Assembly (NCBI GenBank): GCA_903813345.2 | Contig: CAIIXF020000007.1 | Span: 7,633,730-7,697,729, forward strand | Direction: 5' to 3' | Length of the DNA stretch: 64,000 nucleotides | Origin: Owenia fusiformis | Taxonomy: Eukaryota > Annelida > Polychaeta > Sabellida > Oweniidae | Shown here: piece after piece, positions 285-53,294 of the stretch | Numbering within the stretch: the first letter of the stretch is position 1 | Layout of the letters: every line of letters begins with the position of its first letter | Translations under genes and position numbers: made by a program | Notes under the pieces: model-generated | Databases searched by the model: none | The model's input: only the letters and a program-made list of their open reading frames with translations | What the model was told of the DNA's origin: nothing

Positions 285-450
285 GTTATACTTTGAAAGC
301 ATCCAGTCAGTGTTCAGTGAGATGTTGGAAGAAAGCAAGTTAGACAAGGAGAACCCCTCAGTGAATGTAAGACGCCTCATGCAGATTCCTCTGAGAAGAC
401 TGAAGGATTATGGCAGACTGAAAGCAAAGCTAGCACTGGCCTATGTTGAG
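285..450 (+). CDS. ALS2: ALS2 exon: end of DH domain
   Basis: Codes 55 residues including [13 protein letters not shown], typical of the last DH helix. Acceptor AG at 283-284, donor GTAAAT at 451. Enters with one leftover base and ends in phase 0. Confidence 0.9.
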
Positions 451-3400
451 GTAAATTAACAGTACTGATTTTTTGTGGATGATGTTTGGATGAGGTGTTT
501 TTTTGTTGGTGTTCTGCATTTGGCAGTTGGTGTTGAATGTTTGATAGTCGGTGTCGGTAACAAATAGCAGATGTGAAATATTGCATGTTAATGCCTTGTT
601 TATTCATATTTATGGCAGTACATGTATTTTATATGTGTGTATTGAATCATTGGCTTCCCAGTAAGTTATGATATATTTTTCAGGATAAAGCTAATATTCT
701 ATCTTTTATTTTGGATATCTGTATATATTTTTCAGGATAAAGCTGAGATTAATTTTACCTGACCTCCCTAAGTAAGGGTGTGCTGACAGTTCAAGTGATA
801 TGATTGTTGTTGGTCATTTTGAAGTCATATGATATTATTTCTATTTATAGGGCAGTGAGGAGCATTGTCACCTGACCTCTCTTAGTAAGATGTGGGATGG
901 TATTAAAAGCCAAGCGTCTGTGGAACATACAGTTGCTGAGAGTACAAGAGTTTTTTGGGAGTCCAGTCCTTATAAACTTGTTGTATGTCTTTATTTTTAT
1001 TTTTGATTATTTCTTATAAAAAATCTATATGATTTATTTCAAACATTCATTTTTAAACATTGTATTTAAAATATAACTCCAACAGCAGTACTTTGTAGAG
1101 ACCTTTCTTGGATCAATTCTATTCCCAATCTCAATTACAAATGGCTGTTAGTGAATACTTACATGTGTAAAATTTATTATAGAGTGTCACTGACATTACA
1201 TTAGTCAGAACTATACTTCTTTATTTTTATTATTTATTAAGTCACATTACAAATACAATTCCAAAGTTCACAATTATAAAATAATGTCACATATTTTCAG
1301 AACTATACATACAAATGAGTACTAGTAAATGAAATAATCATATTTCAACGTATTAAGCTATGTTTCCTTATATTTAGGAGTCATTAAAGGTTTCAAACAG
1401 GCGCTTGTTAAAGGAGAGCAAGTCTCTGCCCCTGACCATACCCCAGGCTGGCCGTTTCTCCACCCATTGGTTTATTCTCTTCAATGATGTATTTGTACAT
1501 GCTCAGGTAAACTGTTAATATAGAAAATTGTTCAAGCTCAGGTAAACTGTTAATATAGAAAATTGTTCAAGCTCAGGTGAAGTGTTAATATAGAAAATTG
1601 TCCAAGCTCAGGTGAAGTGTTAATATAGAAAATTGTTCAAGCTCAGGTAAACTGTTAATATAGAAAATCGTTCAAGCTCAGGTATAATGAAGTTACCATC
1701 TTTGCAAGGAATGTTAAACTTTAGATTTCAAGCTTAATGACAGCATTACTTTTACATTAACGTTTCAATTAGTAGTTATAAATTCAAGCAATGAAATCAT
1801 CAATCAAGCCTGGTACATGTTGTTTTTTGTGTGTTTTTTTCTGGTACATGATTTGACTCTGACAGAAGTGTCACAAAATATGTGCTTAGAATATAGGAGG
1901 ATTGTATATTAAACTTGTCAGGATATGTTTAAAATATATGACAATAATTTAAGAGGATTATAGAACTATTATTTGGCTGTTTAAAATGGAGTAACATTAT
2001 GCTTTAGACAATAAATAACTACCATGTGCATACAATATAGGAGGATTATGTGTTAGATAAGGAACTTATATCAGAAGATTATAAACACTACTATAAAACT
2101 ACTATTATTACTATAACTACTTTAATCCTGATCATTTACCATCATGCCACCACCAAAAGTTGACAAACTTGATAAACTTGAAAAAATCATCGAAGCCCTA
2201 ACTCAAAAAATAGCAACCCCAGAGGACATCAGACTTATTGTAAAAGAGGAACTTTCGGCATCTTTGGAACATCTCAACGACAAAATTGTAGCGCTGGAGG
2301 AAGATAATCAACAACTAAAGGAAACAATCAAAAACCAGAACATTAAGCTTCTCGAAATTGAACGACATGCTAACTACAATGAACAATACTCACGAAAATC
2401 AAATATCAAAATTACTGGCGTAAAGGAAGAGGGTGATGAAGTTTGTAGCCAGACAGTTCGTAAAATAGCTACTGACATTGGTATTAAGCTTGGAACAGAG
2501 GACATAGATGCATGTCATAGGGTTGGAAGGAAAGTCGACGCCAAAAATGATGCCTCCACAAAACCAAGGTCCATAATTGTGAGGTTTAAGGCACGGGAGC
2601 ACAAAGAGAAGTTCATCAGCAATCGTAGACAACTGAAAGGAACGGGGATAGGTATACATGAAGACATCACTAAAAAGAACATGGGACTGATCAATCGCCT
2701 AAAAAATGATCCAAATATAACTGATGCATGGATGTTCAACACCAAAGTCTATTGCCGCCCACAAGGCCGAAAAGGAACTATCCAAGTCGATATTGGTACA
2801 CCAATAACAGATATTCTATCTAAATAATCTCCAATTACAGCACCATTTTAATATGCCAAAGCAATCATCTAATGACTTTTCCCCCTGGACTTACATATTT
2901 TGGACTAACATATCCTTATATATATTGTCTCAAAACTTTTGAAAGATAAAAGTTGGGAGTTTCATCAACAGAAATGACAATCTTGGACATTGCAAACATA
3001 TTCATATGTTTGTCTTTTCTATTAGTCAGTTTAGTATTAGTATATAGAAAACATAGTTTAGTTTCTTCACAAATTCAAGAACATAAATCAAAGATACTAG
3101 TATGTTTGCCAATTATAATCACTTCATTTAAAGACACCACTTCAAAGCGATATGCTGATAACAATCACCAAATAAGGATCATTTATGAAACATATACAAC
3201 TGTAGCTATTCTTAATGAGTTCTCACTCTCATTCCATGCTTATTTTACAATGAAACATGAACTTCAGGTCACCAGGTCAATTCAACTGATAGCTCTAGTT
3301 ACAGCTTCCATTCATCCTAATATATATGAATATTTGATGAGATTAGAAGGGGTCTCCTTACTAATCCGACTTTTCCATACAACAACATTTAAACCTGATT

Positions 3401-6400
3401 AACCATGGATGACTTGCATCTTTGTGAGCTACCCTTTTATAACGTTACTCTAGTGATGTTCTTTGATGTCATTCCATCAGCTAATAATCACATTGACTTT
3501 GAAAGCTTAATGTTCAATCCAAAAGACCTTGATAGAGGTGTTGCTAATGACCCCTCCAATCATAATGTTATTGAAGATAATGATTTTTCAACAACTTTAA
3601 TTGAAAAATGTAAATATTATACTCTTGAGCAAATGAACAGCCAACCAATGGACAGTGGGAATAATTTGTCTATGATACATGTAAATATGAGAAGTGTCAT
3701 GAAAAATCAATGGAAATTTGATAACTTGCACAATTTATTAAAGCATGACTTCCCTATCATAGCCATGTCTGAAACCTGGTTAAACAATAACAATCAAGAT
3801 ACTTATAACTTAGAAGGATATAGCACCATATGCAAATCTAGAGATGGTAGGATAGGGGGAGGAGTTTGTATACATATTCTTGATAATATTAATTGCACCA
3901 AAAGACCAGATTTAGAATTTAACATGGATAATTGCGACTCATGCACCATTGAGATGTCTTTAAAGTCTGGGCAAAATATACTAATATCTGTCCTTTATAA
4001 GCCCCCGAATGTTAACCTCAGAGATTTTAACAACAACATAGATATATTTCTTAAAAGATTAAATGGTGAAGGGAAAGTCACATACATCTTAGGAGACTTT
4101 AACATAGACCTCTTAAAGGCAAATGAGCATTATATGACCGAGGATTTCTACAATTCTTTGTTAACAAATGGTTTTCATCCTTCAATCTACAAGCCAACAC
4201 GAATAGGATCAAGATCAGCTACCCTTATTGATAATATTTTTACAAATGCTGTAGATATAAGTTATTCTGGCATAGTGCTAACTGATATATCTGATCATTT
4301 CCCTATTTTCTTAACCACTAAAAAACAACTAAAACAGTCAATTTACAAGACTATTAATTATAGGATTATGAATAAAACAGCTAAGGAGAAATTCAACTAC
4401 CAGCTTTCAAACACAGACTGGAATGATGTCAAACAATCAGATAATTGCAATCAAGCATATTCAGTTTTTATTGACAAATTTATGAGTGTTTACAATGAAT
4501 GCTTTCCTTCAAAATCAAAAACAATAAAGATTTACCTTAATACAAGGAAACCTTGGTTGACTGACGCTATTCTCACATCAGTTAAAGAGAAGAACAAACT
4601 ATATAAAGAATATTTAAAAAATCCCAATCCTATTAATAGTACTAATTATAAGACATATAAAAATATTCTCACAACTCTAATACGGAATGCAGAAAAAACA
4701 TATTTTAAACAAAAAATTGATGAATGCAAAGGGGATGTTAAAGTAACTTTCTATGATTTCATCTAAAAATTAAAACCTTTGGAAATACTAAATATGGTTT
4801 AGGTGCCATATATAAAAATTTATTTTAGAAATATTGTGGATCAAAATGAAAAAAAAAACAAAAATAAAGAATAAAAACACATTCCACTGGAGGGATTTGA
4901 ACCCAGATCTTTTGGAATAAAAGTCTGTTTGAGCCCAAAGCTCTAACCACTACACCAAACTGCCAAAGCTTCCTGAAGGTAGAAATTCTTTATCTATATA
5001 ATCATGGACGAAAAAAGTCTTATTTACATGCTTAAATTTCTTAAAAATGATCAGCATTACTACTAATAATAACATTTTGCATGTCTGAGTAAGTATTTTG
5101 ATCTACATTTAGGATAAAGGTTGTTTTATTCAGTTTTCATTTTGGGTATGACTTCCTGTCAAAACAGTGCTAAAAATGCAGGGCTCAACAAAAATTTTCA
5201 ATTAGAAAATGATATATATCCTTTGATCAGCTGTTTTTGGCACCTGGACTCATCCTACTAGAAAGGTAAGAGCATTTTCTTGAGACATATGGCTCGAAAT
5301 CTCACATTTCTCCTTCTAAGTCTTAGAAAGACACTTTAAGAAAACCTGGTCAATATTAAACAAGATTTTAAAAAGAAAACATAATAAATCACAGGATGTT
5401 CCATTCTTTCAAGTTGATGGTAATAAAATTACGGACAATCAAGGTATAGCCGAAAGATTTAATGACTTTTTTGCAAATGTTGGGAGAAATCTAGCAAATA
5501 AAATTAAACCTAATAAATCTTTTAGGGGTTTTATGTCAAACAATGACAGTGCTAATTCCTCAATTTTCTTAAGACCAATCTCAGAGGAAGAAATAGTAAA
5601 TATAATATCTGAACTTAAGAATGGTTCACCTGGACTTGATCAAATCAAACCAGTTATATTGAAAGAAAATAAGCTTGCTCTAGGAAATATTCTGACTTAC
5701 TTATGTAATATATCACTTAAAACTGGAGTTTTCCCAGACACCTTAAAAACTGCCAAAGTTACTCCTCTATATAAAAAGGGCTCTGTTCACCTTTTCACTA
5801 ATTATAGACCAATCTCACTTCTTAGTGTTTTCTCTAAAGTATTCGAGAAAATTATGCATAAAAAAGTCACACTATTTTTGGATAAATTCAAATTATTAAG
5901 TAAAGATCAATTTGGTTTCAGAAAAAACTTATCAACCTATATGGCAATTCTCACCTTTTTAGAATCACTTCGAGATTCGCTTAATAATAATAAATTCTGT
6001 ATTGGCCTTTTTCTTGACTTATCGAAAGCTTTTGATACGGTTGATCACGCTATTTTGCTGGAGAAGCTTCATTATTATGGAATTCGTGGTGTTGCAAACT
6101 CTTGGTTTAAATCTTACTTAACGGATAGAAAACAAATTACACAATATAAAGACCATGTGTCAACCCCAACAACTATTTCATGTGGAGTACCCCAAGGGTC
6201 TATCCTAGGACCCCTACTTTTTATTATTTATATAAACGACCTCAGTTTTACTTCTTCTATATTGAAGTTTGTACTTTTTGCAGATGACACCAGTATTTTA
6301 CATTCAAATGAGTCGAAAGAAGAACTCATATCTGTTGCAAATAATGAACTTAAAAAAGTCAATGACTGGTTCATGGCTAACAAGTTATCACTTAATATTG

Positions 6401-9400
6401 AAAAGACTAATTTTTTATTCTTTTCACCTAAAAGAGGAACATATAACCCTGAAGAAATCAAGATAAAAATTGATGACAAAAATATTACAAGGAAGGATAA
6501 CATTAATTTTCTTGGTGTCCTAATCGATGACAAACTAAATTGGAAACTTCACACTCAAAAACTAAAAGGGAAAATAGCTAAAATTATACACATGTTATAT
6601 ACTTCTAAGCACTTACTTGACAACTGTTCGAAAATGAAAATTTATAATGCTCTTATTCATTCGGGGCTTGATTACTGTAATATAATTTGGGGTAATGCTG
6701 ATAAAAATCTCCTCAAGCCTCTGCATATACTCCAGAAGAAATTTGCCAGGTTAATAACAAATTCTAGTAAGTTAGCTCATGCTGCCCCTTTATTGAAAGA
6801 TCTTAGCATCTTAAATATTTATGACATATTTAACTTGAATGTTGCCAACTTTGCATACCAAAATATGAATAAACCTGACAAGTTCCCATATCACCTTTTT
6901 AATCAATTCTATTCCACAAATGCTGATACACATGACCATGAAACTAGAAATAAAGACCGTATACGTTCATATATGTTTAAAAACAAATTTGGTGAAAAGT
7001 CAATAAAAGTAGAACTATCAAGAGTTTGGAATGGAGTAAATGGAAACATCATTATGTCTTCTACTTTATCTTTGTTTAAATCGTCTTTGAAATCACTTCT
7101 CCTCTCCACCTACATCTAATATCAAATATCATGTCATGGTTCATTTTGTTCATGTTTCATTGCTAACCTAGTGATCCTTATCATCAAAGAATGTGCTCTT
7201 GCTATATATACACTACAATGTAATATGTAATGTGGTGTAAACTGCACAGTATACGCCCAGCGTCTTGTGCAAACCCTGTTATTCAAATTGTAATAATTAT
7301 AATATGAAAATAAATATAACATAACAAACATAACACAATATATTTGGTCCTGCTTGTGTTTCAGTTTTCTACCAACCAAGCATTCCCATTATCCACTGTG
7401 TGGATTGAACCTCTAACAGACACTGAGACAACACAGTAAGTATAGCTAGGGTCCCTGACACTACACAGTGTAGGATCTTATTTTAAAGGATAAAGAACTT
7501 AAAAGAACATAGAATATAGAAATATAGATCTACTTTTATTTTTTTTAAATGTGCACATTGTCAAACAATAAAGTGGTGTCTATTTTTTTTTTGATATCCA
7601 ACTTTTTTTGTTGATGGTGGTTGTCTGGCATTCAGTGTTTGATACAAATGGCAAGTGGTGACATTTTGCATGTTAATACCTTGTTATTTTTGTAATTTTC
7701 AGCAATGTATTTACTCTCACAACACCTGAAGAATTCCTTACTCTTTCAACCCCTGGGCCGACTGAAAAGGTAAACTTATATTTGTATTGTATAGATTTTT
7801 TTTTATATAGGAGATAAAACTTTACTTTTTTTCCCATGCAATGCCTACATATTGATTGACAGAGCATAATGTAATGTAACTGAGCATTACTATAGTACTT
7901 TGTGCACTACTAAACCAGACATGCTTTTTGTTTTAGGCTGAGTGGACGTGGGAAATTAACAGGTCAATAGACAAAGTCCTTGCAGACAAGAAACAAATAT
8001 ATCGCCCAAAAGGTGGCAGTCATGTTTCCCCACCATTGTCACGACACGCCACATATAAGTTTTACAAAGCAGGAAAGCTGAAGGATGCTGTCTACACAGG
8101 AATGTGGCTCTCTGGAAAGATGCATGGACAGTAAGTATGAAAAATATTTTTCTCTGATTTTTTCCTTTATCACAATGAAAGAGGAGGAAAAGCCCCAGAG
8201 CTTAAGAGATAGCAAACATAATTACATCTCTTAATTACTAACTTTGTTTGTTCGAATTTTCACCCGCTACGGGTTAATTTGTCGTAATGAAGAAGGATTC
8301 TTGATGACTTATGACACAATTTTAAATGTCCTGGACTCACTGATAAAATGATGATTTCATTTTCCACTGAAACACACAGCAGATTTGTCTGACCTATATT
8401 GCTCAGGGATCCTCTTTCCATGCTCTCTGTTGGCAGAGATCTTTGAAAAAAGATAGGAGAGGAATCGGGACAGGTGACAAAGGCCAGATGATATTTCACA
8501 TTTTAAATAGTAGTTTTCCGATTTTTATGTCACCGCCACAAGTGCATATTGTTATAGTCTCCAACTTTTTGCGGAGACTGGTTGGTGTTCAGTTGTTGAC
8601 ATTTCGGCAGTCAGTATCCCTTACAAATAGCAATTGGTGACATTTTGCATGTTAATGCCTTGTTGATTTCATCTTTGTTTTATAAATGCTTTACATTTGT
8701 TTTAGGGGAGAACTAGTGTGGTCGGATGGTAGGACTTATACAGGCAGATTCAAAAACAGTTTACAACATGGGTGAGTGCACCCTTTTATACCATTTATTA
8801 TTATTACCCCAACTAAAAGAGTGTTCATCCACTCTTGTCAGTTACTCCACTGTGCAAAATATTCCGCTATATACAGTATGTAAGTATGTGCATATGTACA
8901 TCTTAAACAGGTTTTATATGTCATGGCATTGCCTTGTTCACTAAGCATTTGGTAAATGGTCCGCTTGTGCATTTGAATATATCTCATTCTTAATCATTTC
9001 CATTCCATTTGGGATTTCATCTATATCTACTTTCTTTTCAACACTGTATACACTCACATCATTTGGAGTATCAAGCAGTTCAAGGTATGTAGCGTGCTCT
9101 GCCGCACCATCAACCTTTACATCATCCAGAGTCTCATATGTGTCTATATTTGTATAAATCACATCTGATTTTTGACTCTTTGTTCTAATATTATCTCGAT
9201 TATTTAAATCATTTGGCTCAGTCTTTTGGTGTGAATTTTGTGCAACATTTGCGCCACTTTGGTTAATTTCTTCCTTATTATTGTCAATATGATGCATAAT
9301 CGGTGATTTTGAGGAGTATTCATGGTTGGTTTGATTGCGCTTTGAAAGGATCAGTAAAGTCAATAAAATAATGGAAGCAATCATAAAGAATACCATTCCA

Positions 9401-12400
9401 ACTATGAGTGCAATAGTCAATGGGGAACTAGAAGCAGAGCTTGAAGCGATGGGGATTCCATGGATGAGATTTGTAGTGGCATAACTAATAATTGAGTCAG
9501 TATAACCTGAAGTAGAAAGGATTCCATGACTGGTGCCTGTAGTCACTGGGTCATTGTCCATAACAGCAGTTATAGCTGCTGTAGTAACAGTGGTAGCAGT
9601 TGCAACAGTTAAAGATCCTGCTTGATCTTGGTCACATGTCTCTGTCTCACAGATGTATGGTAATTTAGAGCAGCATGACTCATACTGAATTGTCAAGGTG
9701 CCTTCAGTTTTTTTCACCATAGCTGGACATTTTCCACATGTATAGTCAATTGGGCAGCTCTCTTTTGATACCAGGAGGTCAAATCGTATTGCAGGACGGT
9801 CATTCCAATCTTGTGGGTATAAACGTATTAACTGTGCATCAAATGGTTCTGTAAAGTTATTATAAACTGATGTACTGCGGTCATTATTAGCAGATAGTTC
9901 TTCTCTTCCCTTTTCTTGAAGTGTGAGGAAACTGTCACCATCTTTACTGTACAGCAGTCTGTAATATTTTGTCCACTGATCTCTATCCTGTCTACCCTTT
10001 GTAACAATACCATATATACACATTGTTTTTCTGAGATCTAATTGGATCCAGTTATTAAATCTCTTGTCTTTAGGTACCCATGCAGTTCCACTATTAATTT
10101 TTGCATATTTTGCGCTTAATTTTTCAAGATTCCTGCTGTATGAAGACGCTTTCAATTGTTCATCATCAGTGTGCTCCATGATGAAATAAAGTTTTTTCAT
10201 TTCTGAAGAATCTGATGTTTCTTGATTATCACCTGAATATCCAATCCAGGCATTCCCAAGCTTATTTCCCTCCATGACACCACTAACAATACTTTTAGAT
10301 TGATTGTCCTTAACATTGATGATTGTTCCCTTCCTCCTGTTACAATCCATAACAGCCTCAGACCAAGACAAGTTCTTCAAGTTAATGAGGATTTTCCTCT
10401 CAATTTTAATTCCAGCTGGGCATATCAGGCCATCCATGTATCTGAGAGAGGCCAATGTTATTAGGATAACTCTTAACAAATGTTCCATTCTTGATATTTG
10501 ACTATTCCACAGTGTTCTTTCAATGTTCCAGTGCATGGAATAGCTACTTATCAGAAAAGTTCTAACAGGGAAAATTATCTTGCATTGTGTTTAAACTTCC
10601 TTGTGGATGCCTAGGTAAAGTGTTTACTCATGTTTTATGAGTTTTTTAGTATGCTGTCGATGAAGTCATCACACAATGATTTAAAATTGGAACATCAATG
10701 CCTATATAAATAAGTCTGATTCAATTTTTTGGTATTTGTAGTTGTCAGGTCATCTCAACCTTGTAAAATTCAATTGAATTTTAAATATGAAAGGTTTTGA
10801 TCTTTTTTAAGGATACTTCCTGGTTCTGTAGGATTACCTTTTATAGTGCCATGAGTAAATAATTATGTGCTATTTTGAACATTTTATTGAGCTGTCATGT
10901 GTTCTTGATTGGATCATTCTAGGTAAACTGTATAACATATCATTGTCATCTGTTGTCCTTTTGTAGCTTAGTATTAAATCTAGAACTAAGTAGTTTTGGA
11001 TTAATTCTACCACCTTGGCTGTTTATTTTTTATCTTGTCATTTCAGAATCTTCCATGGTTTGTTTCACATAGCTTTAAAGAAATTGTTTGAAATAATGGA
11101 GAGATTTCGCAACTCACTTATAGCATGTTTTTTATTCCTGTTTAACTTATAAAGCGTTTGATTACGTCATCATTAATTGCGCAGGTCTATGCATCCATAA
11201 GTGTGTTGTTCTTACATCAAGACCACAGTTATACAGGAATAATAAACATGGTATAAGTGAGTTGTGGAATATCTATATTATCTACGTAAAGGCCCGGTCA
11301 CACCGCCCGGACGTTGCTGGAGCGTTCCTTGAACGTTGAAAAAATTCATCAACGCTCGTCAACGCGCACAAAATGGGGAAAAAAAACAAAAACACGGGCG
11401 TTGGCTTAGCGGTGCACCGCTGAACCCGGCGTTGCTTTAGCGTTGATTAAGCGGTTGCGAGCGGTAGCTAGCGTTTGTTTAGCGGTAATGCGAGCGTTGG
11501 TATAGCGGCGTTCTGCGCGTGAGAGCGTTGCCTCGGCGGGGGTATAAATAGCAGCAGCGTTGGTTTAGCAGCATATCGCGTTTAACTACTGGGAAATTAT
11601 TTCAAGTGGGAAGTTTTTAAGAGTAAAGACCTTTATTGGAATTTGTAACTTTAACAAAAGTCCTTCAAGGATTAAAGAAAAAATGTTTTAAATCTAAAGT
11701 GCTTCTATTAATGTAATATGACATTAAGAATGAATAACATTACAATTTTCTTTAATAATCTCTCATATCATTTCAAACAAACATATCACAATTTAATCGT
11801 TGCATTTCCATTACTTGGAACCGATTTACGTTCAAATTGCTTTAACAATGTCAAATAACATTTACAGCAAAGTAATAATCATGACGCATGACAAATTTTT
11901 GCATTGCTGTGCGCGCATCAACTTTTTGTATAATACCATGACGAGTGCAACATTTTACAAGCTGCGCAGAAAATTCACAGATAATTTATTGAATTGCTTG
12001 ACGTGAAAACACTAGGTATATACTATATTTGAACAATGCAAAAAATTGAAATGCCAGACATGAATATATATCAAATGTAAAATACAAGTGTCTCCACAGT
12101 GTTCTACACAGTGGTGCATTTCTCCACGTATTTATAGCCAAATTCTGGTCCCGCTCCGACACCTCTATACCAACGCCAAAGCAAAGTTCATCGCCGCCAT
12201 GGAACGCTGCGACAACGTCCGACAACGTCCGACACCGTTCCAAGAACCCCATGTACGCTGATAAAACGCTAACAACCGCTCCACCGACGTTTGTGCAACG
12301 TTTAATCGCCGCCCGGGCAACGCTGGCGATGCAGCGGTGGTCCAGCGTTTAAGATTTCTGCGTTGGTCTAGCGGATTCAAGCGTCCACGAACTTGCGTCT

Positions 12401-15400
12401 AGCGGTGCCAAACTTTGACTGGGCGTTGGTGGAGCGGTGATAAACTTTGCCAGGGCGTAAAATTGTCCCTTTTTCAACGCTCACAATATTTTGAGAAGCT
12501 CAAAACTTTTGGAGCGTTAGGATGGCCACTCGAGAAACATCCGCGTTGGCCGAGCGTTGACAGCGTTGCTTTAACGGATGCCAACTTTTGTTAAACGGTT
12601 GTGAACGTTTACGAGCGTTGATGATTTTTTTCAACGTTCAAGGAACGCTCCAGCAACGTTTAGGCGGTGTGACCGGGCCTTAAATGTTTTTGTATGATTA
12701 TAAACAGGAAATTGGGTATAAAAATTCCCAGTTTGTAAGGAAAAAACCTTGTCTGCTCGTAAAAACAAACTTCATCCTTTATGTGATTAAAAATATGGCA
12801 AACATTCAAGTGATTTTATTGAACTGAAAAAACCTTTGAATTATGAATCATATGAGGGAGGGTGACACTAAACAAAATAATCCTTGCGTATTATAAAAAA
12901 CATGAAAATGTCACCACCTGCCATTTGTTACAGACCTGAATGCCGAACACCAACTGCTAAGCTCGAAGCACCATCCACAAAATGTGGGAGACTAGAACAG
13001 TGTGTCACTACTAGTGCTGTTGACATAAAAACACATCATAAGTGTCTTATTATCTCTTATAATATATTGCCATAACTTCACACCTAGCTTTGCCTTTAAT
13101 TTTACTTTCAGTTTGATTTTTAGATGCTTAGTATTTCTTTATATACATACCTAATACAGGTGTAGTATTTTGATTTATACTGAAATTGTTTTGGGATAAG
13201 CACTATAATCCCTATAAAATATTCGATATTTAAACACAGCTTAAAATAAGTTGGGAGTTAATAACCTGCGAGTTAAAGTATGAGCAATTCGATATTTTAG
13301 ATTACAGTATTTTATGTTATAAATCTTCCATCCTTAAATGTATATTTTGGCTATTTATATGGACATATCCCAATGTACTGATTTTGCATAAAAGTAAAAG
13401 TTTGTTAAACGTCCCTAATTATCTGAATAAATCTCGTTGTTGAGCATATCAGTTCCATCTGGGATTTCACTGTCATCTACTTTCTCATCATCATATGCAT
13501 CCACAGCTTCTGGAGAGTCATGCAATGTAGGCTCTTTAGCCCCATTCTCCTGCACTTCATTCTCAACCACTTTCTTCTCTTCACTGTATACACCCTCATC
13601 AGTCAGAGTGATATATGGAGTCTCCATATTATTACCCAAGATTTCGTTTCCATCATCTTTCTTTTCTTCAATGTATTCATATTCGCCATTTTCAGTATGG
13701 TCCAAGTCAGTGTTTATAGCCTCATATACCGTTGTATCTTGTTCAACATTATCTTTAGTGTCAATAGCAAAATATTCAATGTTATTTATGTTCAGTTCAG
13801 TCTTATCATGTAAGTTTGGCGTGACCATAGTGTCACTTTGTTGTATTTCCTTCTTGTTATTTTCATTATGATCAGTCTTTTCTGCATCAGTGGTGGTTCT
13901 AAGATTGTTAAGATGACGATATAAAAAGACAAGTAAAATCAGTAAGATAACTGAGATAATCATAAAGAGAACCATTCCTATTGCAAGTCCTACAGTGGAA
14001 CTTGAGGAAGGGGGTGTTCCTTTATGGGGGTTTGTTGAGGCATTCAAAATAGCTGAATCAGTCAAAGATGATTGGGATTCAGTTGTCAATTCACACGACT
14101 CTGTCTGACAGATATATGGTAACTTGGAGCAACATGACTCATACTGGATTGCTAAGTCCCTTTGAGATGTATTCACTAAAGCTGGACATTTTCCACATGT
14201 AAAGTCAATTGGGCAGGTCTCTTTTGACACCAGGAGGTCGAATCGTATTGCAGGATGGATTATCCAATCTTGTGGATATATACGTATAAACTGTGCATCA
14301 AATGGTTTTGTAAAGTTTCTTGCAACTGGTGTTACAGCGTTCCTATTACCAGGAAATTCTTCTTCTCCATTATCCTGAAGTGTGTGGAAGTTGTCACCAT
14401 CTTTTCTGTAAAGCAGTTTGTAAGCCGTCGTCCTCCAACTTGGATTTTTTCTACCTTGTGTAACAATACCATATATACACATTGTGGCTTCCAGATCTAC
14501 CTGAATCCATTGATCTTGCCTATCATATTGAGGTACCCAAGCGCTTTCACTGTTAAATCTCGCTAATTCTGGGAGGTACAAATTGTAGAAGTAATATGAA
14601 GAAGCTTCAAATTGTTCATCATCAATATACTCCATGATAAAATATGGTTTTCTTATTTCTGATGGATTTGTTGCTTCTACAATATCACCAGAATGTCCAA
14701 TCCAGGCACTACCCAGTTTGAATCTCTCCATAACATTGAAAACGATCTTTTTAGATTGATTGTCTCTTATATCAATGATTGTTCCATTCCTTTTGGTACA
14801 TGCCATTACAGCCTCTGTCCATGTTAAGTTCTTAGAGACAACACTGTCAACTAGAGCATCTTTCACCAGTCTATATCCAACTGGACATAACAGGCCATCT
14901 ACATATATGTATCTCAGAGAGACCACTGTCATTAAAAATACCACTCTGTATAAATATCCCATTGTCAACATGTTATGGTTATGATCAGACTAAATTACTT
15001 CACCAATTATTGCTGTTTGCTCCAAATTGTTGTGTAATTTTAAAGTCACGAAAAAATTTCATCATGAGTAATGTCTATACTTTATACATAGAAACTGCCT
15101 GAGTTAAACCCATAAACATCTGATGTTTACTTGCTTTACATATAAATATAGCATGCATTTAGTCATACTTATGTTGAAATCATAATCCATGAATCATGAA
15201 CCACTAGAGTGTGTCAATTGGTGTATGAGTACAATCACCTCTGTTCACTTTATCCATGCTGTGTAAAGTAACAATTTCAAAACAGTAATCGGTTTGGGGG
15301 TATAAGTACATAATTAAGATAGATTATTCATGAATTTATTGCTATTTGGCATAAATATGATTTATATATTAATCCTCAATGATTGGAGGGCATTCTGTGC

Positions 15401-18400
15401 CATTCTGTCATTGCATAATTTTTTTTGACTCGGACATCCAAGCATTTGGTATTTACAATATGAGCTGTCTTAGAGAACACCTTTGTATTGAACACTGTTC
15501 CTCTACAGATACTTTACATACCTCTGTATAAATTACCCTCTCTGTAGTGAACACCTACCAATGCTGAACACTTTTTCTTGGCAAAAAATGTTCAATATAC
15601 ACAAGATTTACCGTATTTATATAACATGGTCTAATCAGATCACAAGAAATTTTACCACTATTGAATAGTTACATGTATTTCCAGCCATGGGCAATACCAA
15701 GTTCAGAAAGCTGATGGTGTTGAGGTATATGAGGGCAACTGGAGAGACGGCAAGATGCATGGGCTTGGATCTATTAAGTATGAAGCATATAGTATTGCAA
15801 AGCATTCATATTTCCTATTTTATTTCAATGAATCATTCATTTGGTATCATTAATTTTTTTAAGGAATTTAAAGTATTCTAGCTTCCTTATCTTGATGGGA
15901 ACTCAAAACTTTGCAATATAACTTTCTAAACTGGTAAAATCTCTCCATAGGTCACTGTTGGCCATTTTCCATTAGTTTCCTCAACCTCATTTCAATTGTC
16001 TTATACGATAGTGTTTTGATATAAAAGAGAACTTTGAATTCATGAATCACACTTTTAGCATTCCAGTAGATGATCAAGCACATGAATTGGACAGAATTAT
16101 AAATGACACCATTTTGTTGATTGTGTCATGACATTACTCACACATATATGAGCATATACAGGTAGATATGGGTTGTATTGTTCTGATCTTTTCTATTGAT
16201 TTCAATTGGTAATATATTCTAGGTATGCCATGGATCATCGCAACTTTTGTTTTTATTTTCTCAGGTATGCCAATGGAGATGTCTACGAGGGCTATTTCAA
16301 AGATGGTGTGCGTCATGGTCACGGTGTATTTAAACAGGGACGTATGACATCATCACTTGCCAGTGTATTTGTTGGAGAGTGGGCCAATGACAAGAGAAAT
16401 GGCTATGGGGTACTGGATGACATACTGAAAGGTGTGTATTAATTGTTCTTTAAGGAAGAGAATCTATTAGTATGACTTACAGCTTCAGTATGTTACTGCC
16501 TTTTATGTTTAAACTCATGAACCTTACACATAAAGTTGAAAACACTTAACATAATTTTACATGAATTTTTTTGGACTATTTCAAACCAATTATAAAGGAC
16601 ATAAAACTTTATTTTCAAAATCATTTTCAGAACATGTAAGATTCCTATCATGAAACCTCAACTGAAGATCCTCAATTTTCTCGCAGACACTTTAATAACT
16701 TTTAAAAGGCTATACTTGACATACTGTAACGATGTCACTGTTAGCTTTGGTATCTTGATTTAGGAGAGAAGTTCATTGGGATGTGGGTGGATGACAATCG
16801 CCATGGTAATGGTGTTATGGTCACACTTGATGGGATGTACTATGAAGGCAACTTTGCAACAAATAAAATGAGTGTAAGTATTCTTCAATTATTAATGACA
16901 TTCCTCGACATAACACCTTGTTATTCCATCACCAGAATTGGTAACATGTTATAGTCTCCAACTTTTTTCGGGGGTTGGTGTTTGGCGTTTATGCCTTGTA
17001 CATTTATAACACTTCTCACACATGCTGTATTTTATCAGATGGAATTCCTTTACTGTAAAATAATGCAACACATTTTGGTATCTTAAAGGTGTTCCACTTG
17101 AGCAGTGTTCCACATTCAGAGGACTCTAAAAAGTGTTCCACTTTGAGATGTGTTCCACATTACACTAAAAGGCTTAAATATACATGTATAACAAGAATGG
17201 GGGCATTATTAACTTGACTTTAGAAAAGCGTAATCTTGATTCACAATTAAATATATTTGATATTAAAAGTTTTCAGTCTATGCATATCTATTTTAGGGGA
17301 CAGGTTTGGTAATGACTGAGGACAATACATGCTACGAAGGTGATTTCTCAGGAGGTTTCCAGCTTTATGGCAAGGTACATTTAGCACAGTACTCATATAT
17401 ATCCATTAGATTGTATGTTCATAAACTCAACCCATTTAGCATAGTACCTAACACAATATTTGCCCGAAATATTATATGTTCATTGAAGAAGGTCAAAAAC
17501 TTGTACAATGTAAAATTTCAAAATGTTGAACCCTATCATGTATTGTAGGGACCATCAAATACATAATATGTATTACATTCTGCATTCTAATTGCTTTTAG
17601 GGAAAAATGACACTTCCGAATGGGGACACAATAGAAGGACATTTCAGTGGTAGTTGGAGCTCAGGAATCAAAATTAGCGGAACATTCCAGAAATCTGTAG
17701 GACCAGTCAATGAGAAGATGACTTTCAACCATGCTTTAGGAATTCTACCGAAGTATGTGCATACTGCATAGGATACCTCTGATATTATTAGACTAATTCA
17801 TTGCTAATTGAGATTTTCACTAAGTTCTAGTTGTTTGAATTTTAAAGGCTGCGTGTTTATCTTTCTATAACCAAGCTTGATATTGAGATTCTAGCAATGA
17901 TATAATAATGTGTGTTATTTCTAGAACATTTGGTTAATCATGTCACCACCAAAAAGTGGTGACATATTGTTGTGGTCTCCATTTTTTTTTTGACGGCGGT
18001 TGGCGATCAGCGTCTGAAACAAATTCTTACAACTTCCAATAACTTAACAAATACTGTTTAGATTGACTTCATTTTTAAAAAAAATCATCTACAAGTTTTT
18101 AGAAGTTCAAATCTGACATTATATTTAAGATTTGACCTTTTCAATTTAAAAAAAGGTTAAAAAGGTCAAAAAGTTTTTTTTTCAAATTAACCATTTTTTC
18201 AAAATCATCTACAAGTTATCAGAAGTTCAAATCTGACTTTAGATTTGAAATGTGACCTTCAATGACCTTCTCAAGGTCAAAAAAGTTCAAAAAGGTATTT
18301 TTTCAACTTGCTCAAATTGACCAATTTTTTTTCAAAGTCATCTAAGTTCTCAAAAGTTCAAATCTGACTATGGATTTGACCTTCAATGATATTCTCAAGG

Positions 18401-21400
18401 TCAAAAAGATTTGCCATCAGTGACGTTCTCAAGGTCAAAAAGGTCTTTTTGGCTCACACAGTGAGCCTATGGGATCGACCAGGCGTCCGTCCGTTGGTCC
18501 ATCTGTCCGTCCGTCCGTTGGTCCGTCCGTCAACATTGGCCGCACAAATTAAAAATGCTATTCGGATTGAGTCATATCCACATTCATTTTATGCATATTT
18601 TCATCTTGCTTCAAATTGACCAATTTATTTTTCAAAATCATCTACAAGTTCTCAGATATTCAAATCTGACTTAAGATTGAACTCATAATATTTATTGTGA
18701 GCAACTAGATGGTGACATTTTGTCATGTTAATGCCTTGTTTATGTGTTATTTCCGGAAACGTTGGTTAATTTATATGTTATTGCCAGAACATTTGGAACA
18801 TTACGTGTTATTTCCAGATCATTTGGAACATTTATGTGTTATATCCGAAAAATTTGGGAAAGGACGATTCTCGGTTTGGAGAACAGTCTCCTGAGCTAAT
18901 AATATTTTTCATGAAAAATATAGAAATATTACCCAAATTAAACTATGAATATTCAAAAGAGGACATTTAAATCTACAAGATGTAAAAATAACAAATTGGT
19001 CTGAAGCAGGGATAACGCTCAATTAGACCGATTTAATAAAATACAAGTCTCGATTTGGGGAAAGAAGTTCATCAGTGTACTGCGCTAATATTTTTTTGCG
19101 AAAAATCTAGAAATATTACCCAAATTAAATTATGAGTATTCAAAAGAAGACATTCAAATCTATATTATGTAAAAAAATCAAATTTGTCCGAAGCAGGGAT
19201 AATGCTCATTTAGATTGATGAACTTCGTTCTCCAAACCGAGAATCGTCCTTTATTTGTGATTTCCAGAACATTAGGAACATTTATATGTTATTTCCAGAA
19301 CATTTATGCATTATTTCCAAAGCATTCAGACCATTTGTTATTTCCAGAACATTTATGTGTTATTTCCAGAACATTTGGAACATTGTGTGTTATTTCTAGA
19401 ACGTTTGGAAAATTTTTGCATTATTTCCAGAACATTTGGAACATTTATGTGTTATTTCCAGAACATTTGGAACATTGTGTGTTATTTCCAGAACATTTGG
19501 ATCATTGTGTGTTATTTCCAGAACATTTGGAACATTGAGTGTCTCAGCAGATCGTAAATGGGAAGAGATATTCCAACATTGTCGTACAGTACTTGGGTGC
19601 CAAGAGGGTGAGACAACAGTGGACTCTCAGAAAGCATGGGAGATGGTGGCAATAGTTATATCTAATGGAAAGAAAAGACTACAGGATAAACATTTACTGT
19701 AAGTGTTTGAATGTTGTAGGTAGGAATTGCCAGGCACCAATTAAGGTAACTCTCAGTGAGAGCCTCTTTGCAAGAGCTGGACTCATCTGCCCTCTTTAAA
19801 TAATGAATAATTTTTTTGAGCTAGTCTATATTCAATGAAAGCCCCCATTAGAATGTGGATTAATAATTCATGTTAAGTTCATACTCCCCTTTTGAGATCA
19901 TAGAGGTTTAGTCAGAACGATAAAATGCAGTCGATGGTCAAAGAAAAATGTTTTGGACTGCAACACACATAGCAAATATTGAAACTTGAAACTTGTTTTA
20001 TTTTCACTTTTTAGAGATTCACCAAAGCACCTCAATAAGGCCAATTTAGAAGCTTTAGAAAAGATACCTATCCATGATAGAGGCACTTTCAGTATTGCAG
20101 ACTTCCAAGAAATCCAAGCATATTTAGCGAAGGTATGTTAGTACTTGTACTATTTCTGTTTGAATGTTTCCAATATGCATCTAAAGATGGCGTTAATGTT
20201 GTTCATAAGAGAAGATGTAAGAGGGGAAATACCCCAGGGTTCAGAGATGACCATAACTTAAATGGAAATTTACATAGAGATGACCATTGTCGCTGATTGG
20301 TCAAATGACATAAGAGCTGAGGAAAACAAAATGGTGGATTGAAAATTTTGTCAAGTGCTTCAATTAATATGATGTTAATTTCTGGTGTGTTCACCAATAT
20401 CATAGCTTATTAATTTACATCAAGGTAAAAGAAGATGTAAGGAATATGTTTACATCGATGAAAACATCTCATCGATGTGTATTCAGAAACTAGATTGGGA
20501 TATAGAGAAGCCATAGATCTTTTCAATATTTAAGTCTTATCAGTCTAGAATATTTGTTGAAGTGGAAATTCACAAAATGGTGGATTCAAACTACATTTAT
20601 ACTGGGTGGGCATAATAAGTGGGCATAACAAGTGGGCTCTACTTCGGCACCTGATATCTCCGTAACCCTCAATAACCCTCTATTTACCTTTACTTCTAAA
20701 AATTTGAACATGTGAAACCACTTATCTCCCTAATCTAAAAATGAAATTATAGGGTTTGTTCGATGACTATTGCCTTCAGCAAAGACCTTAGTCATTCAAC
20801 TTCTGGTGGCGAAAGGTTATTTGCTTTAATTAAAGCTCAGTATCAAACTATTACCTTGAAAATTGAACAATATACTAAAGTACATTTGTAACTCAATCGT
20901 CTCATGAAAAAAACATGTGTTCACCACCAGAGAAGATGGAGAACCAATTGATCAATGTTATAAGTGTAACAAAGTTTGACGTCATATTGAAATTATCAGG
21001 AACATGCGTTTTTGAATCATGTTTTTGATTTTGATCTTATTACCAGTAATATTTTTATATTAGGGAGATAATTAGTTTCACATGTGCACATTTTTAGAAG
21101 TAGAGGTAAGAGGGTTATGGAAATATCAGGTGTTGAAGTACGGCCCATTTTTTATGCCCACCCGGTATATGGACAAATACAGTGTAATGGCAAATAAATG
21201 ATGCATGAGCATGGTTGGATTTATGTCATTTGCTCATCAATCTATATATCTCTCATTTGAGTTTTAATTGTGACACGCCTTACCATCGCGTAAGCAGGCG
21301 TCACCGTACAGCGTCAAAAAATAGCGGAGTACAGTTTTCTGTACGGTAACGCAAATTAACTGCTTCGAAGCAAAAACTATGACAAGGGTTTAAAAAAATT

Positions 21401-27400: not shown

Positions 27401-30400
27401 CGATTTCGGGAAGCTACAGCCATCGTACGGTTGCCATAGATCAAATGTGACTGAGGCTTTTTCATTGGGGTCAGGCTGAACTGAAGCAATTGTTTAATTC
27501 AAATACCTTTTGTGAAGATGTTGAATAAGAATTGAAATAATGAATTACATATTGAGACAGCTTGTAACAGGTTTACACATTTGTTATTTCAACCAGTATG
27601 TATTTCATCCACATGGCCTGACCTATTACTTTTTGATTTATCAGTTTGTTGTGACACAATGTTTTACCTCATTCATTGATTCTGATGAATCTATTTCAGT
27701 TATAATTAGACAATCCTAATTTTAATTCATCAGTCCTTTGAATTAGAGACATTATAAAACGTTGTTAGTTATGCAGAACTATCATTGGGCTTCAGTCTGG
27801 AATCTCTTTCAATTTTGACGAGACAAATGTTTAAAAACAATGCACAAAAGCATATAATGGCTAGAATGACAAAAAAGCTCTTTGAGCAGGATTCTCCGTA
27901 ACACTCATTTGAACCTGGTTGGCTTTGCACTCTATACCCAAACCCAAACAGCTGTTGGAATGCATACATACCAAAACTTTGAGCAACCAATACGATACCA
28001 AAATTTTGTCCAAGATATTTTAAACCAAATAATTCAATGATGACCCACTGAATTTGTACAAAAAATGATCCATGGGCGGAAGCCATGATGATGGTACTAC
28101 TGAACAAACCAATGAAATCATGATAGAAGACAACCATGACAGTACAACTAATGCACATTAAAAATGCACATGGTAGGATACTTGATGATTTGGGAATGCC
28201 AGGCCACTTCTTAAAGATATGGGTAAAAATCACTGCACTAACGATTCTGCCTAGTGTACTGAAAATTGGAAGACAGATTGTGAAAACTGCGATATCATCC
28301 TCCCGGTGAACGGATTTCAAGACTGTTGAGATATTGTTGATGAATGTAGCACCAGTTCCAGCTAAAATGAAAGATACCAGGAAAAGATAGTAGAATTCAA
28401 CTGTTTTTAGAATTTGACATCCGTTCAGATCTGGTGGGTTTGAAGTTGTTTCTTCTAGATTTGCCTTTGGGATTAGTTCAGTTTTATCATTTACACTTTT
28501 TTTAGCTTCTATTTTGTCCTCTGCAACACTAGTTTTAGGAGTTTCTAGTTCTTTCATTTTGATTTCATCTTTCTGGTCTGACAGATTTATTGTGACTTCT
28601 TTAAACACAGCTATGGATAACAAATTAATTATAAATGAGATCACAGCTAGGAACATCATATAGTCTCCATACTTTTGATTCTCAGCATCTTTTATGTGTC
28701 CTTGAACAAACAGTCCTTGATAGATGGCACTAAATATTGCTGGGGCGATCCCATATGCAGCATTGAGAAGCCCTAGTATCTTACCAGTATGTTTTCCTTC
28801 AAAGTTTTTACAATTTACACATGTGCTTGCAAGGTAGGGAAACGATGTCCCGAATAGTGTCATAAAAAACATGGCACATACCAGCCAGGATTTTGTCGCG
28901 AAAAATGTTTTAAACTTTGTAGTCATCCATAATAATGTATATCCAGCAACAGATAAAATAAGACCAAATATACTTGTTACCCTCGGCCCAAAGTTGTCAT
29001 ATATGAAGCCTGCAGGAATAGTAAGACCTTGTCCAAAGTCTCCACTTGCAGCTATATTCTCAATGTCCACTTGTGTAAAGTTAAAGGTACTTTTCAAGGC
29101 GATTGCATATGTGTTGAAGCCATATATAAGTCCTGCCATAACCATGTTGAGCACTCCAAAGACCAGGGTGAGATATTTCTGTATGTACATTTTTGTCCTT
29201 AAGAGTACAATATAATCTATGTTAGTGAACACCTCTCTCTAGTGAACACCTGTGTTTAGTGAACACCTTATTAAGTGAACATCACTTCAAGTAATATTCT
29301 ACAATGGCTTCGGTTTAAATTCCCTTTTTGTGGCTCGATAAGTTTTCACGATATATACATACATAGTACCCCACACACAATTTTGTCGCCTACTTTGATG
29401 TGTTGTAGAAAAATATCCAATAAGAGTTTTCTCATGAAATTTGGCATACATTAAATTGAAACAATTTGTGACACTCAATTTTTTTTTTGGGGGTAATATG
29501 ACTTCACCACAATTTGACTTCGGTTTCTAAATTGCTACGCATTTACAGATTTGAACTAAATTAAGCTAAATTTTGAAACAATTTGTAACAAATTGATTAC
29601 AAAAAAATTTGAATATTCTGTTTAATCCTATCCTATTAAACACCATTATAATCAACTGGTAAAAGAAAAACTGAACCAAGCAGGAGTGACTGTTATAATG
29701 TTACAATGTTATGATGTTATCCCTGAAAGTTCACATGTTTAATCCATGTGAATCATTTCCAACAAAAGGCAAGCCGTCAGTGGCCACCTGTGAGGTATTG
29801 GGCAAATATGGCCTCCCGATCATAGGCCAACGAAAAATTGAGTGCAAGCTCACTTTTAATAATGCCTTAATTGTCTTAAACAAAATACAACAATTTTCTT
29901 GAGATTTTATGAGATGCGAGCTACTGGAAAGGATTTTTTAATCGAGTGAGACAGTAGGAAATGCTGTAGTGGTAGGATGGGATAGAAATCCAAGCAGAGA
30001 TGTGTTTCGGTGCCCTGATAAACCTTTTTAGACTTAAAGCCAACAAATCATATGATACATGCACCTTGGAATTATTAAAAGGGGTGTTCACTCTTAAACA
30101 ATAATAAAACCACACTTACAATATTCCTGTTTAGGAGTTAAACATCTCCAACACATAGTAACAATATCTTAAGAGAACAGACAAACCATATGTAATGCAA
30201 TAAGTTTGTAATCAAAATGTAATCAAAATAATTTAAACTCTCTTTGAAACTACAAAACTGGAAATTTTCGTCGAATTTTGTTAAAACATGATTATTTTAA
30301 AATTGCTTGTTTTTAGTCAATATTACTTAAATTTCCAAATAAAAAAATTTGAGTGTCACAAAATGTTTCAAGTTTACGTATGCCAAATTTTATAAGCAAA

Positions 30401-45400: not shown

Positions 45401-48400
45401 ATCTGGAAATAATCCTAGAAATCAGTCCTATGGAATATTTATATCACAAATAATAACGATTTGAAGAATCCGCAGTCAATTGAAGGATGGAAGCAACAGA
45501 GTTACGACCCTAGGAAAAAAATGACAGTCAAGGTTACAGGTGTGACATGCTGAATTCATATACCAAGAAATCTATAATAAGGAATAAAAGCATATGCACT
45601 AAAAACGATATGACACCATTATCAAATGACCATGAAAGAAGTACATTTATTCTTTGAAAGAGGGTAAACTAAGAGAAGGGACACAGTGGTTTGATATGGT
45701 CCTTCATATTTGGTGGAAAGATGTATATTGGTGAATTGTTTTACGCAAAACATTTTTCAAGATGGTAGCTGCTTTATATATGACGGGAAATTTTCCCGAA
45801 AATCTTAAGTTTCATTTTAAACCAAAGTGATCAGTATTATTGTACGAAATATTGATAGTATATTCACAACATATAATGCCGTGTTTTTCACCCTGACCCC
45901 CAGGGGATGTCTGAAAAATAAGATTTTTTTTAATTTTGAGATCTCTCTTTAGTATAATTTCATTCTACTCAGTTGAAAGGCAATTTAGAGTAGATTGCAA
46001 ATATTGTTTCATTTTTATGATTTGGGCCTCATAAAATTCAAAATTGCTGCCTCATGTGGGATTTCTCAATAATTTTCTGATCTCTTCAAAGTATTGCTAT
46101 ATTATATTCAAATTGAAAGGAATTTTAGAGTAGATCACAATTAGGATATTGTTTTTCTGATTCATGCAGCAGAACATTTAAAATGGCTGCCTAGAGCAGG
46201 AATTTACTATTTTTAGAGATCTCTTCAAAGTATTGTTATTACATTATTATATTAGATTTCAAATATTGTATTGCCTTCATGATTTGTACCTTTAAAACTC
46301 CTATATGGTTACCTAAATGATTAGATCAGTGGAAATTCTGTTATATCTCTAATGTATGTCTTAATATTTGCCAATTTTGCAAATATTACATTGTGACATA
46401 TACAGATTCATGAATATATTGTTCGTTGGGATATACTACTCCATGGAGTTGCTGTTTTTTTAGTCTTAGATACTGACATTTGATTGATTTTGCAAATCAT
46501 GAAATAATTTATCAGAAAGAATGATCATTTTGAAAGAAGTAATTTCTAGGGGCTACCTTACTCAAACTCAGCAACTCAGTTTGTTTTTTTTGAATTCATT
46601 TGATGTCAGATGTGCAAGATGTTTAAGTGCCCAATTTCATCATAACATACACCCAAACTCATCATAAAATACACCCAAATCAAAAATATTCAGCACAACC
46701 TATCAATAACCTTTTTCGACTCTGAACTTATGCCATTTAATTATATACGAGCAATTTTTCAAATTTTTTTTTTTTGACTCAGAGCCACTTTGATCAAGTA
46801 TGGACTAGTTCCCATGTACTAATTTAACCATGGGCAGACTCAGAGCCACTGAAATAATGGATGATTTCCCATTTACTAATTTTACCTCCTCTCATGTTTT
46901 GCAGGAAGTTCTGGTTAGTGAAGACTGAAAGTAATGACATCACACAAGTGTCAAGTGTCAAGGACCAGTGTTATACTGTTGCCATAGAAACATTACAACA
47001 TATCAGGTAAGTATCCCCCTCCCAGTTAATCAGAGATTTTTTTGAAAATCATGATGATTTAATATTTTATGTGCACAGTGTACATGGAATTCAATTCAAT
47101 TCAAAATATTGTATGTAAACTAATCTACGTCTATTCTTAGTGCCGACTAATAAAGATGGCGCAAAAATTTAACAAGAAATAGATCAAAAAACTTGCAAGC
47201 CTGAAATGAGATTTATTTAGTTTTCGATCCGGCATCGAACTTTTGATGCCTCCCCTAAGACTGCTGATGAAGCATATGAGTAGTCAGCACTGTTAGAGCA
47301 TCTATGATGTTTTTATTCCCGAAGACTTAATCAAGATAAATGAAGTTAAATTGAACTTATCTGTTTCAGCACTACATTCAGCCCTGCAGAGAAGTTGAAA
47401 GTAATCCACAAAACATTTGATGGAGTGAACAGGGTCAGTGAACACTTCCTACTAGAACTTAGATAGTAATTTGCAATAGTTTACTATTAACATTAAGTCT
47501 ATATCAATGAATTTAAAGCATTTCTGCTATGATTTGCAATATACATTAATGAGCTATATGTTGCTGATGGAATGCCTCAAATGAAATGAATATTTTTCCT
47601 TTTCTTGTAATTATTAAAGCAGAGGACAAAAACTCTGTTGAGATTCTTTTAATCTAACATAGCAAATGTACAATCATGAACTTGTGTTACGCAAATACAC
47701 CGCAAACTTGGACATTTTCTGTATTTGTCCTGGGAAAATGACTCATAGCAAACTTAACTTTTGTTTATATTTCCTATTCATTTAAAAAAGTTTGATATCA
47801 AAAGTATGATGGAAAGTGGAACCTCAGTTGAAATGGGATGCATATACGGTCTGTTCTAGATACATTGTTTCCCCTCTGGAAATATGTGTATCACCCTCTG
47901 GTCCATCATGAGATCAACCATTTTTCTTTAGGATGAACCCTGTATCTAAATCTTTAGTATATCCTTATTATGTATCAGACAATAATGTTTAATTGATTTG
48001 TACTGTTATTGCAGACTGTCCAAGATGCTCTGGGTTCAGACTATCTCTGGTCTATGGATGACCTGTTCCCTGTCTTCCAATACGTTGTGGTGAGAGCGCG
48101 TATCCGCCATCTTGGAGCTGAGATTCATGGGATTGATGACCTCATGGAACCACATTTGGAGCATGGTGAACTAGGAATAATGTTCACGACACTCAAAGTA
48201 TGATTGATAGACCGATCAACTTTATATTTAGTCATATCAGTGTATTATAATGTCTAACTTTTTTTGATTGTGTTTGGCCTGTGGTGTTTGGCCCCTATCT
48301 TACAGATCAAGTCAACCTAGGGAGAAAAAAGATCCAAATGATTGTTGCTTAGCCACTTTATGCTACCGAATGAGAAAGTACAGCCTCTTGTTGAGCTAAT

Positions 48401-52263: not shown

Positions 52264-52791
52264 GAATAGCAACAATAATATGTGAGGGGTTAAACTTAAT
52301 GAAAATAACCATAAGTACAATTTGTGGCCACATTAGTGCTATATTTCCTTGCTGAAACTCAAAACCATAAGTTTCTATCCTGGACCATTTCAATATGGTA
52401 CATGTACTCTGAATATAGCACCATAAAGCTCCACAATAGGTAGTCATTGAAGAATGTCTTGAATGTACAGTATTTAAATAACGAAATTAAAAAGAGTGAG
52501 CTATTTCGGCTATGACTGAAAATCCAATAAAAATATCAGTCTTAAAGATAAGAACATTTACATAACAGGTTAAGGTGAAAATAGAGAGTTTCAATATGGT
52601 AACATCTCATATGGAAATAAATTGGAAAAAATCGAAGAACAACCTACACTGTACTTCATATCTGCTAACTTGAAACCCCAAACTATCTATATTGACTTCA
52701 CATGATCATATTTGTTTTTAATTCCTCATGAAAGTAGTTCCAAAAAGATTTAATCTCCGACCATAAGGATGTTTTGCTGAAATTAAAAATG

Positions 52792-52864
52792 AGGTTCCGG
52801 TGGGGCTCGAACCCACGACCCTGTGCGTGTTAAGCACATGTGATAACCACTACACCACAGAACC
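52792..52864 (-). tRNA. tRNA-Val (AAC)
   Basis: 73 nt, GGTTCTGTGGTGTAGTGG start. Acceptor pairs with one G-T wobble; anticodon stem TGTGC/GCACA with loop TTAACAC (anticodon AAC); T loop TTCGAGC in a fully paired stem. TTTTT follows the 3' end by two bases, a polymerase III terminator. This copy carries C-to-T at position 6, relative to GGTTCCG in the others. Confidence 0.93.
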
Positions 52865-52960
52865 TTATTGATGAAATTAACCATTGACATTGTAATAAGG
52901 TATTTCACATGATGGCAAAACTTATATGATTTGATCAAAATAGTCATTGCTAGTTTTCCT

Positions 52961-53058: not shown

Positions 53059-53125
53059 GATGACTGATGACCTAGCATTGAGTGACATTCTGACTTAGAG
53101 AATGCTAGTTGATTATTGTAAAAAG

Positions 53126-53198: not shown

Positions 53199-53294
53199 TT
53201 ATTGATGAAATTAGCCATTGACACTATAATAAGGTATTTCACATGATGGCAAAACTTATATGATTTGATCAAAATAGTCATTGCTAGTTTTCCT

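Follow-up and report, generated by a model that had tools for sequence, protein, structure and literature searches.

Mirages are minisatellites that duplicate an intron/exon boundary. They have been described in lancelet genes, namely the Adh gene Adh3, the globin genes BflGb6 and BflGb9, the troponin C gene (TnC) and PGBD5 (PMC3087553, PMC3902484). The repeat units comprise 10–72 bp in Adh3 and 150–160 bp in the globin genes, and the lancelet mirages are reported not to disturb regular splicing. Internal tandem repeats with units of about 30 bp on average are also described for human segmental duplications, where they alter both exons and introns and occasionally switch on cryptic splice sites (PMC2812944).

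Here we analyse a minisatellite at a 3' splice site of an alsin-like gene of the annelid Owenia fusiformis. It was found in a stretch of 64,000 nucleotides, the window, to which all positions given without a contig refer. As in the lancelet mirages, the tandem unit spans the boundary, and many but not all units retain the AG or GT. The lancelet boundary duplications lie at 3' or 5' ends. Differences are the gene itself and the non-lancelet host. Length instability between haplotypes or in soma counts among the traits of mirages; the alsin array is known from one assembly. Compared with what is given there, the present analysis adds a measured frequency (8 of 172 sampled exon edges) and a gene with at least 18 copies. 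The human repeats are variable and reside in recent primate gene duplicates, whereas the alsin array sits at a boundary of a conserved gene.

Tandem arrays have also been connected with the origin of introns, which is reportedly the subject of Zhuo et al. in 2007 and of Gao and Lynch in 2009. In such systems a tandem duplication with splice signals serves as raw material for a new intron, whereas the extra copies in the alsin-like gene look like passengers in an existing one.

In a literature search that lay mostly outside subscription journals, the term mirage was found for such arrays only in the lancelet papers (PMC3087553, PMC3902484); apart from these, the word came up alongside the other terms in a bird population-genetics paper (PMC5714495). 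No paper on Owenia that also deals with tandem repeats, splice sites and introns was returned by the same search, likewise mostly outside subscription journals.

Results

The array lies at the end of an intron of an alsin-like gene

Alsin (ALS2) has DH, PH, MORN and VPS9 domains in this order. In the window, twelve consecutive exons on the + strand, spanning 285 to 20132, share a single open frame that is 527 codons long. The profile match to MORN repeats reached 60.8 bits (cut-off 22.5), and an exon at 48015..48200 (+ strand) matched the VPS9 domain with 43.2 bits (cut-off 27). We took this exon as part of the same gene, as it has the same strand and the expected order. PH_alsin and DH_Alsin matched with 32.5 and 25.8 bits, respectively, which is below the curated cut-offs of 40 and 30, both being scored on partial domains. 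On these matches, of which that to MORN is well above its cut-off, the gene is called alsin-like.

The exon upstream of the array (17601..17752, + strand) belongs to the MORN region and is followed by the donor GTATGTG at 17753. The exon after the array (19522..19698, + strand) has 177 nt and a donor at 19699. The intron in between, 17753–19521, is 1769 nt long and has the array at its end; joining 17752 to 19522 keeps the frame of the 12-exon model without a stop. The first-pass annotation had placed the additional repeat residues before the VPS9 region; the VPS9 exon is situated about 28 kb downstream of the array.

Several other features were seen in the window. A LINE-like element (2132–7119) lies in the intron after the donor array of the alsin-like gene; by eye from the translations it contains a first ORF, then endonuclease- and reverse-transcriptase-like ORFs. 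Long ORFs on the - strand, antisense within the gene, are found at 27769–29238 and 37536–38543 and appear by eye transporter-like and receptor-like, respectively. A 90-bp tandem repeat at 38522–38879 overlaps the 5' end of the receptor-like ORF and is possibly another array reaching into coding sequence. From 52784–53401 on to about 58000 there is a repeat unit with the tRNA-like sequence GGTTCCGGCGGGGCTCGAACC, and related ORFs recur several times downstream.

Structure of the acceptor array

The minisatellite covers 19258..19540 (+ strand) and comprises ten copies of the intron tail spaced 22–31 bp apart. An array of about 30 bp period was detected within 19260–19542 with a best TRF score of 322. 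The motif TTATTTC[CT]AG stands immediately 5' of 19299, 19348, 19370, 19400, 19431, 19462, 19492 and 19522, and the variant TGATTTCCAG immediately 5' of 19268 makes up the ninth site of the block. The tenth intron tail, before 19321, ends in AA, so the acceptor AG is kept in nine of the ten copies. The tandem units span the boundary, consisting of the intron tail with its AG and up to about 16 nt of exon start. The last unit is partial and enters the exon; comparison of the units by eye identified it with the first ~21 nt of exon 19522 (AACATTTGGAACATTGAGTGT). When region 17753–19560 was shuffled 200 times with its dinucleotides preserved, no TRF score exceeded 59 and no shuffle held the motif more than once; the real sequence reaches 322 and has the motif 10 times.

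The claim that a minisatellite multiplies the true 3' splice site was thus confirmed, both sides of the boundary being present in the units, as was the number of nine acceptor-like sites. Units of about 30 bp had also been stated. Anchored on the first base of the exon part, the unit lengths are 31, 22, 27, 22, 30, 31, 31, 30 and 30 bp, so the figure holds for the 30 and 31 bp units, but the length is not uniform.

A genome search with the array, in which very common words were skipped so that rarity is left unproven, gave no match beyond the array itself and the older piece; on this ground we rejected a dispersed satellite. A known RNA element was rejected as well, there being no Rfam match in 17400–20400.

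Older units and inserted elements

Upstream of the block, older and diverged units were recognized at 18739..18858 (+ strand), TRF reporting the piece as 18739–18857. One of the unit copies starts at 18808, while those at 18747, 18778 and 18839 are imperfect relics. They lie upstream of a MITE-like element of 394 bp (18859..19252, + strand) that is inserted inside the array and has perfect 26-bp terminal inverted repeats. Of its 1767 candidate family members 40 were scored, including the element itself, and the 39 others were full-length with 98% identity. Its flanks, 'aatttggg' and 'atttgtgatttccag', point to an uninterrupted array prior to the insertion. A single outlying unit at 17915..17934 (+ strand) shows one mismatch in the 19-base consensus (17915–17933). 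It is separated from the rest of the array by a second dispersed repeat (17942..18735, + strand) with 6829 candidates in the genome; the 39 others that were scored had 80–84% identity, mostly over the first ~509 bases. The first-pass reading of these outliers as relics of an old array broken up by transposons is borne out by the two dispersed repeats between the old units.

Reading frames and acceptor strength

Eight sites of the block lie upstream of 19522. Exon starts at 19462 and 19492 are in frame with 19522 and open, as the first-pass annotation had stated and the 12-exon frame verified; site 19348 shares the frame but runs into one stop, and the remaining five are out of frame. One in-frame stop each also follows the non-consensus AGs before 19330 and 19276, which keep the frame as well, whereas the older sites 17925, 18788 and 18818 lose it and have at least 11 stops. 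The two open units (19462..19521, + strand) are nearest to the exon and differ from each other by one base; their use would add 20 or 10 residues, respectively. By a uniform-codon formula about 21% of 30-bp units, roughly one in five, are expected to be in frame and open; two of eight were observed.

Acceptor strength was scored with a matrix trained on the other 11 acceptors of the alsin-like gene. Site 19522 received 1.0, compared with 3.8 for 19431, 2.8 for 19348, 2.0 for both 19299 and 19400, 1.0 for 19492 and -0.5 for 19462, the copies in the block ranging from -1.0 to 3.8. The gene's other acceptors reached 6.4–15.5, scored on their own matrix and thus on the training set. In the other introns of the gene 146 of 810 AGs scored at least as high as 19522. 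As copies score alike or above 19522 and this many AGs match it, local sequence does not single out 19522. The matrix does not favour this site, so a preference for it would rest on exon definition. We expect that 19522 is mostly used; isoforms with 10 or 20 more residues from 19492 or 19462 are possible. Splicing at the AGs 19548 or 19551 inside the exon was rejected, because they lie 26 or 29 nt from 19522 and the frame would be lost (assessed by eye).

The donor array of the same gene

A donor-side minisatellite with a 35-bp unit covers 1493..1684 (+ strand) and provides six donors at 1507, 1542, 1577, 1612, 1647 and 1682. The preceding exon (1378..1506, + strand) encodes the start of the alsin PH-like domain; the sequence TTTGTACATGCTCAG at its 3' end is similar to the exonic portion of the unit. 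Only donor 1507 keeps the alsin frame open; the other five add stops.

Similar arrays in other genes

Read as sequence, the arrays that straddle sampled exon edges in other genes are boundary duplications. The CCT-theta gene has nine acceptors in units of 83/89 bp, the CCT-beta gene on contig C11 four acceptors in a 96 bp unit together with a 28-bp donor array, and a myosin-Ib-like gene five acceptors in units of 45/61 bp. A chaperonin gene on C10 combines a two-copy acceptor array with a degenerate donor array, several copies of which have no clean GT. In CCT-beta and in the C10 chaperonin the two arrays seem to belong to the same gene, as judged by collinear hits. Donor arrays were also found in a myosin gene on C4 and a chaperonin gene on C1. 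The donor array at C11:142062, with 16.6 copies of a 28-bp unit, lies outside the frame count given below.

For CCT-beta, CCT-theta and the myosin-Ib-like gene, the downstream exon alone, started from the exon-proximal acceptor, gives an alignment to solved relatives that begins at the first residue and has no gaps. All three upstream acceptors of CCT-beta keep an open frame and, if used, would lengthen the chaperonin by 32, 64 or 96 residues; this in-frame status is no evidence of use.

A further array, outside the sample, was met in a KIF4-like kinesin gene (C2:23266359–23269174), where a 159-bp unit is present in at least 18 copies, one step being 158 bp. The unit contains the acceptor and about 128 nt of exon, and the last copy runs on into the conserved protein. 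Six of the 18 copies were read as sequence, with five acceptors from one side of the array and one from the opposite side; each of the four complete upstream units among them carries an in-frame stop by eye, and a 52-residue frame is listed for 16 of the 18 copies. Only for this gene were both exons joined for the alignment: via the last acceptor they align to KIF4 over 86/99 residues with a single gap that is not at the junction.

The exonic halves of the units in these four genes thus represent ancient coding sequence, since they align to known relatives, which favours arrays that started at the boundary and expanded into the intron. The alsin-like exon pair had no match among solved structures. 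The direction of growth at this locus is therefore taken by analogy, by which the array would have grown from its own boundary, with the residues TFGTLSV of the exon start as putatively ancestral.

Of the 38 extra sites counted in nine arrays, 6 keep an open frame: two of eight in the alsin acceptor array, none of five in the alsin donor array and 4 of 25 in the seven others, this count including five C10 donor-array copies of which several have no clean GT. Selection for in-frame units was rejected on these numbers.

Two further loci showed repeated hits. At C9:37986009–37994334 one myosin-head exon (profile positions ~18–84) was hit twelve times at irregular intervals, which looks like a cluster of mutually exclusive exons. 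Two kinase hits 178 bp apart at C10:2256896–2257205, covering profile positions 101–149 and 101–143, are perhaps a duplicated exon piece.

Frequency of arrays at exon edges

The frequency of such arrangements was measured on exon hits of the myosin head and the TCP1 chaperonin domain in 155,760 bases of the same genome; kinesin and kinase hits are outside this set. The 152 listed hits comprise 92 for myosin, whose search scored 65 of its 210 candidates, and 60 for chaperonins. We used 93 of them, 91 being within the retrieved segments. Hit C11:135225–135701 was excluded because it falls on an array; the other unused hits lie outside the retrieved loci by their coordinates. We counted a profile-match end as an exon edge where it lay within the domain by more than 6 positions; such an edge is not an annotated splice site, and at least one match (C10:13378697) extends past the real exon end. 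Arrays were required to have a period of at least 15 and a TRF score of at least 80.

Minisatellites cover 8.0% of all bases of the sample and 1.9% of the exon-hit bases. By this rule 8 of 172 exon edges are straddled by an array (95% interval 2.4–8.9%), each then being read as sequence, and the number is unchanged at TRF thresholds of 60 and 120. Random rotation of the arrays gave an expectation of 11.5 ± 3.3 edges (P of so few 0.18). In a set of 164 edges the coverage outside the exon is 8–9% at 280–400 nt, about 5.5–6.5% at 20–280 nt and 4.7% in the first 20 nt, and it is 1.9% at 41–60 nt inside. So arrays are abundant and become rarer towards exons, without preference for splice sites.

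In the alsin-like gene 2 of 24 junctions lie in arrays, which does not differ from the sampled rate (Fisher p=0.35). Arrays make up 3.1% of the bases of the window, so that ~0.75 of 24 junctions would be expected, and two are still unremarkable. The first-pass annotation had called it striking that a mirror-image arrangement exists at a donor of the same gene. The donor array is indeed there, but its special status is not supported, as such arrays recur elsewhere at a similar rate, slightly below the random expectation. Two chaperonin genes of the sample, judged to be single genes by collinear hits, also have a donor-side and an acceptor-side array.

Discussion

We consider it highly probable that the block is a mirage, that is, a boundary duplication that has grown into the intron and is nearly neutral, 19522 being mostly selected by exon definition. 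A tandem duplication across the intron/exon boundary would have started the array and given each unit an intron tail with AG and an exon start. Slippage or unequal exchange may then have extended it into the intron, where it would have aged and been interrupted by the two dispersed repeats. Provided that splicing uses the exon-proximal acceptor, upstream additions would remain within the intron, so that the duplication would be nearly neutral and the array could persist. Under exon definition the acceptor would pair with donor 19699 across the 177-nt exon, mostly selecting 19522. The same single rule would explain why the first donor of the donor array and the last acceptor of the acceptor array fit the protein. 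Splicing occasionally to 19492 or 19462 would lengthen the protein in frame by 10 or 20 residues, at a point far upstream of VPS9.

The array might instead be a functional module in which cells choose 19462, 19492 or 19522 and so obtain 20, 10 or 0 residues of a decapeptide repeat. The two in-frame, open units nearest to the exon would suit such a module: they differ by a single base and score -0.5 and 1.0, compared with 1.0 for 19522. About one unit in five is expected to be in frame and open by the simple formula alone, however, and the six other upstream sites of the block, with scores between -1.0 and 3.8, would cause a frameshift or run into a stop. Given also that none of the five extra alsin donors and only 4 of 25 extra sites in the seven other arrays are in frame and open, we regard the module as improbable. 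We give still less credence to a splicing buffer, in which selection would keep redundant weak acceptors since the loss of one leaves others. Site 19522 is weak relative to the gene's other acceptors and nine sites are at hand, but most copies would yield frameshifts or stops if used. Moreover, arrays are not enriched at exon edges and cover donors too, where the extra alsin copies add stops. Least credible of all is that the array is an artefact of the assembly: its units differ from each other and are interrupted by two dispersed repeats, and independent genes carry similar arrays. With similar repeats on several sampled splice sites, the boundary duplication seems to be a tolerated consequence of the abundance of repeats and not a special switch.

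Taken alone, the array in the alsin-like gene is one more boundary-spanning minisatellite, and its value lies in what it points to. Arrays in the sample are located at donors and acceptors of genes including CCT subunits and myosins, with the KIF4-like kinesin gene besides. The chances seem to us evenly balanced that roughly 1 in 20 splice junctions of the genome is embedded in a minisatellite multiplying the splice site up to 18-fold, among whose copies the spliceosome must find the exon-proximal one. If this is true, the genome would be a natural large-scale test of exon definition and would hold standing raw material for new exons and introns, with the alsin-like gene as a case where two copies could already serve in frame. 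If mainly the exon-proximal copy is used, the arrays would provide a clean natural test of splice-site choice where local sequence cannot discriminate. The array of Owenia fusiformis would extend mirages beyond lancelets; if so, mirages would appear to be a by-product of minisatellite-rich genomes and not a lancelet oddity.
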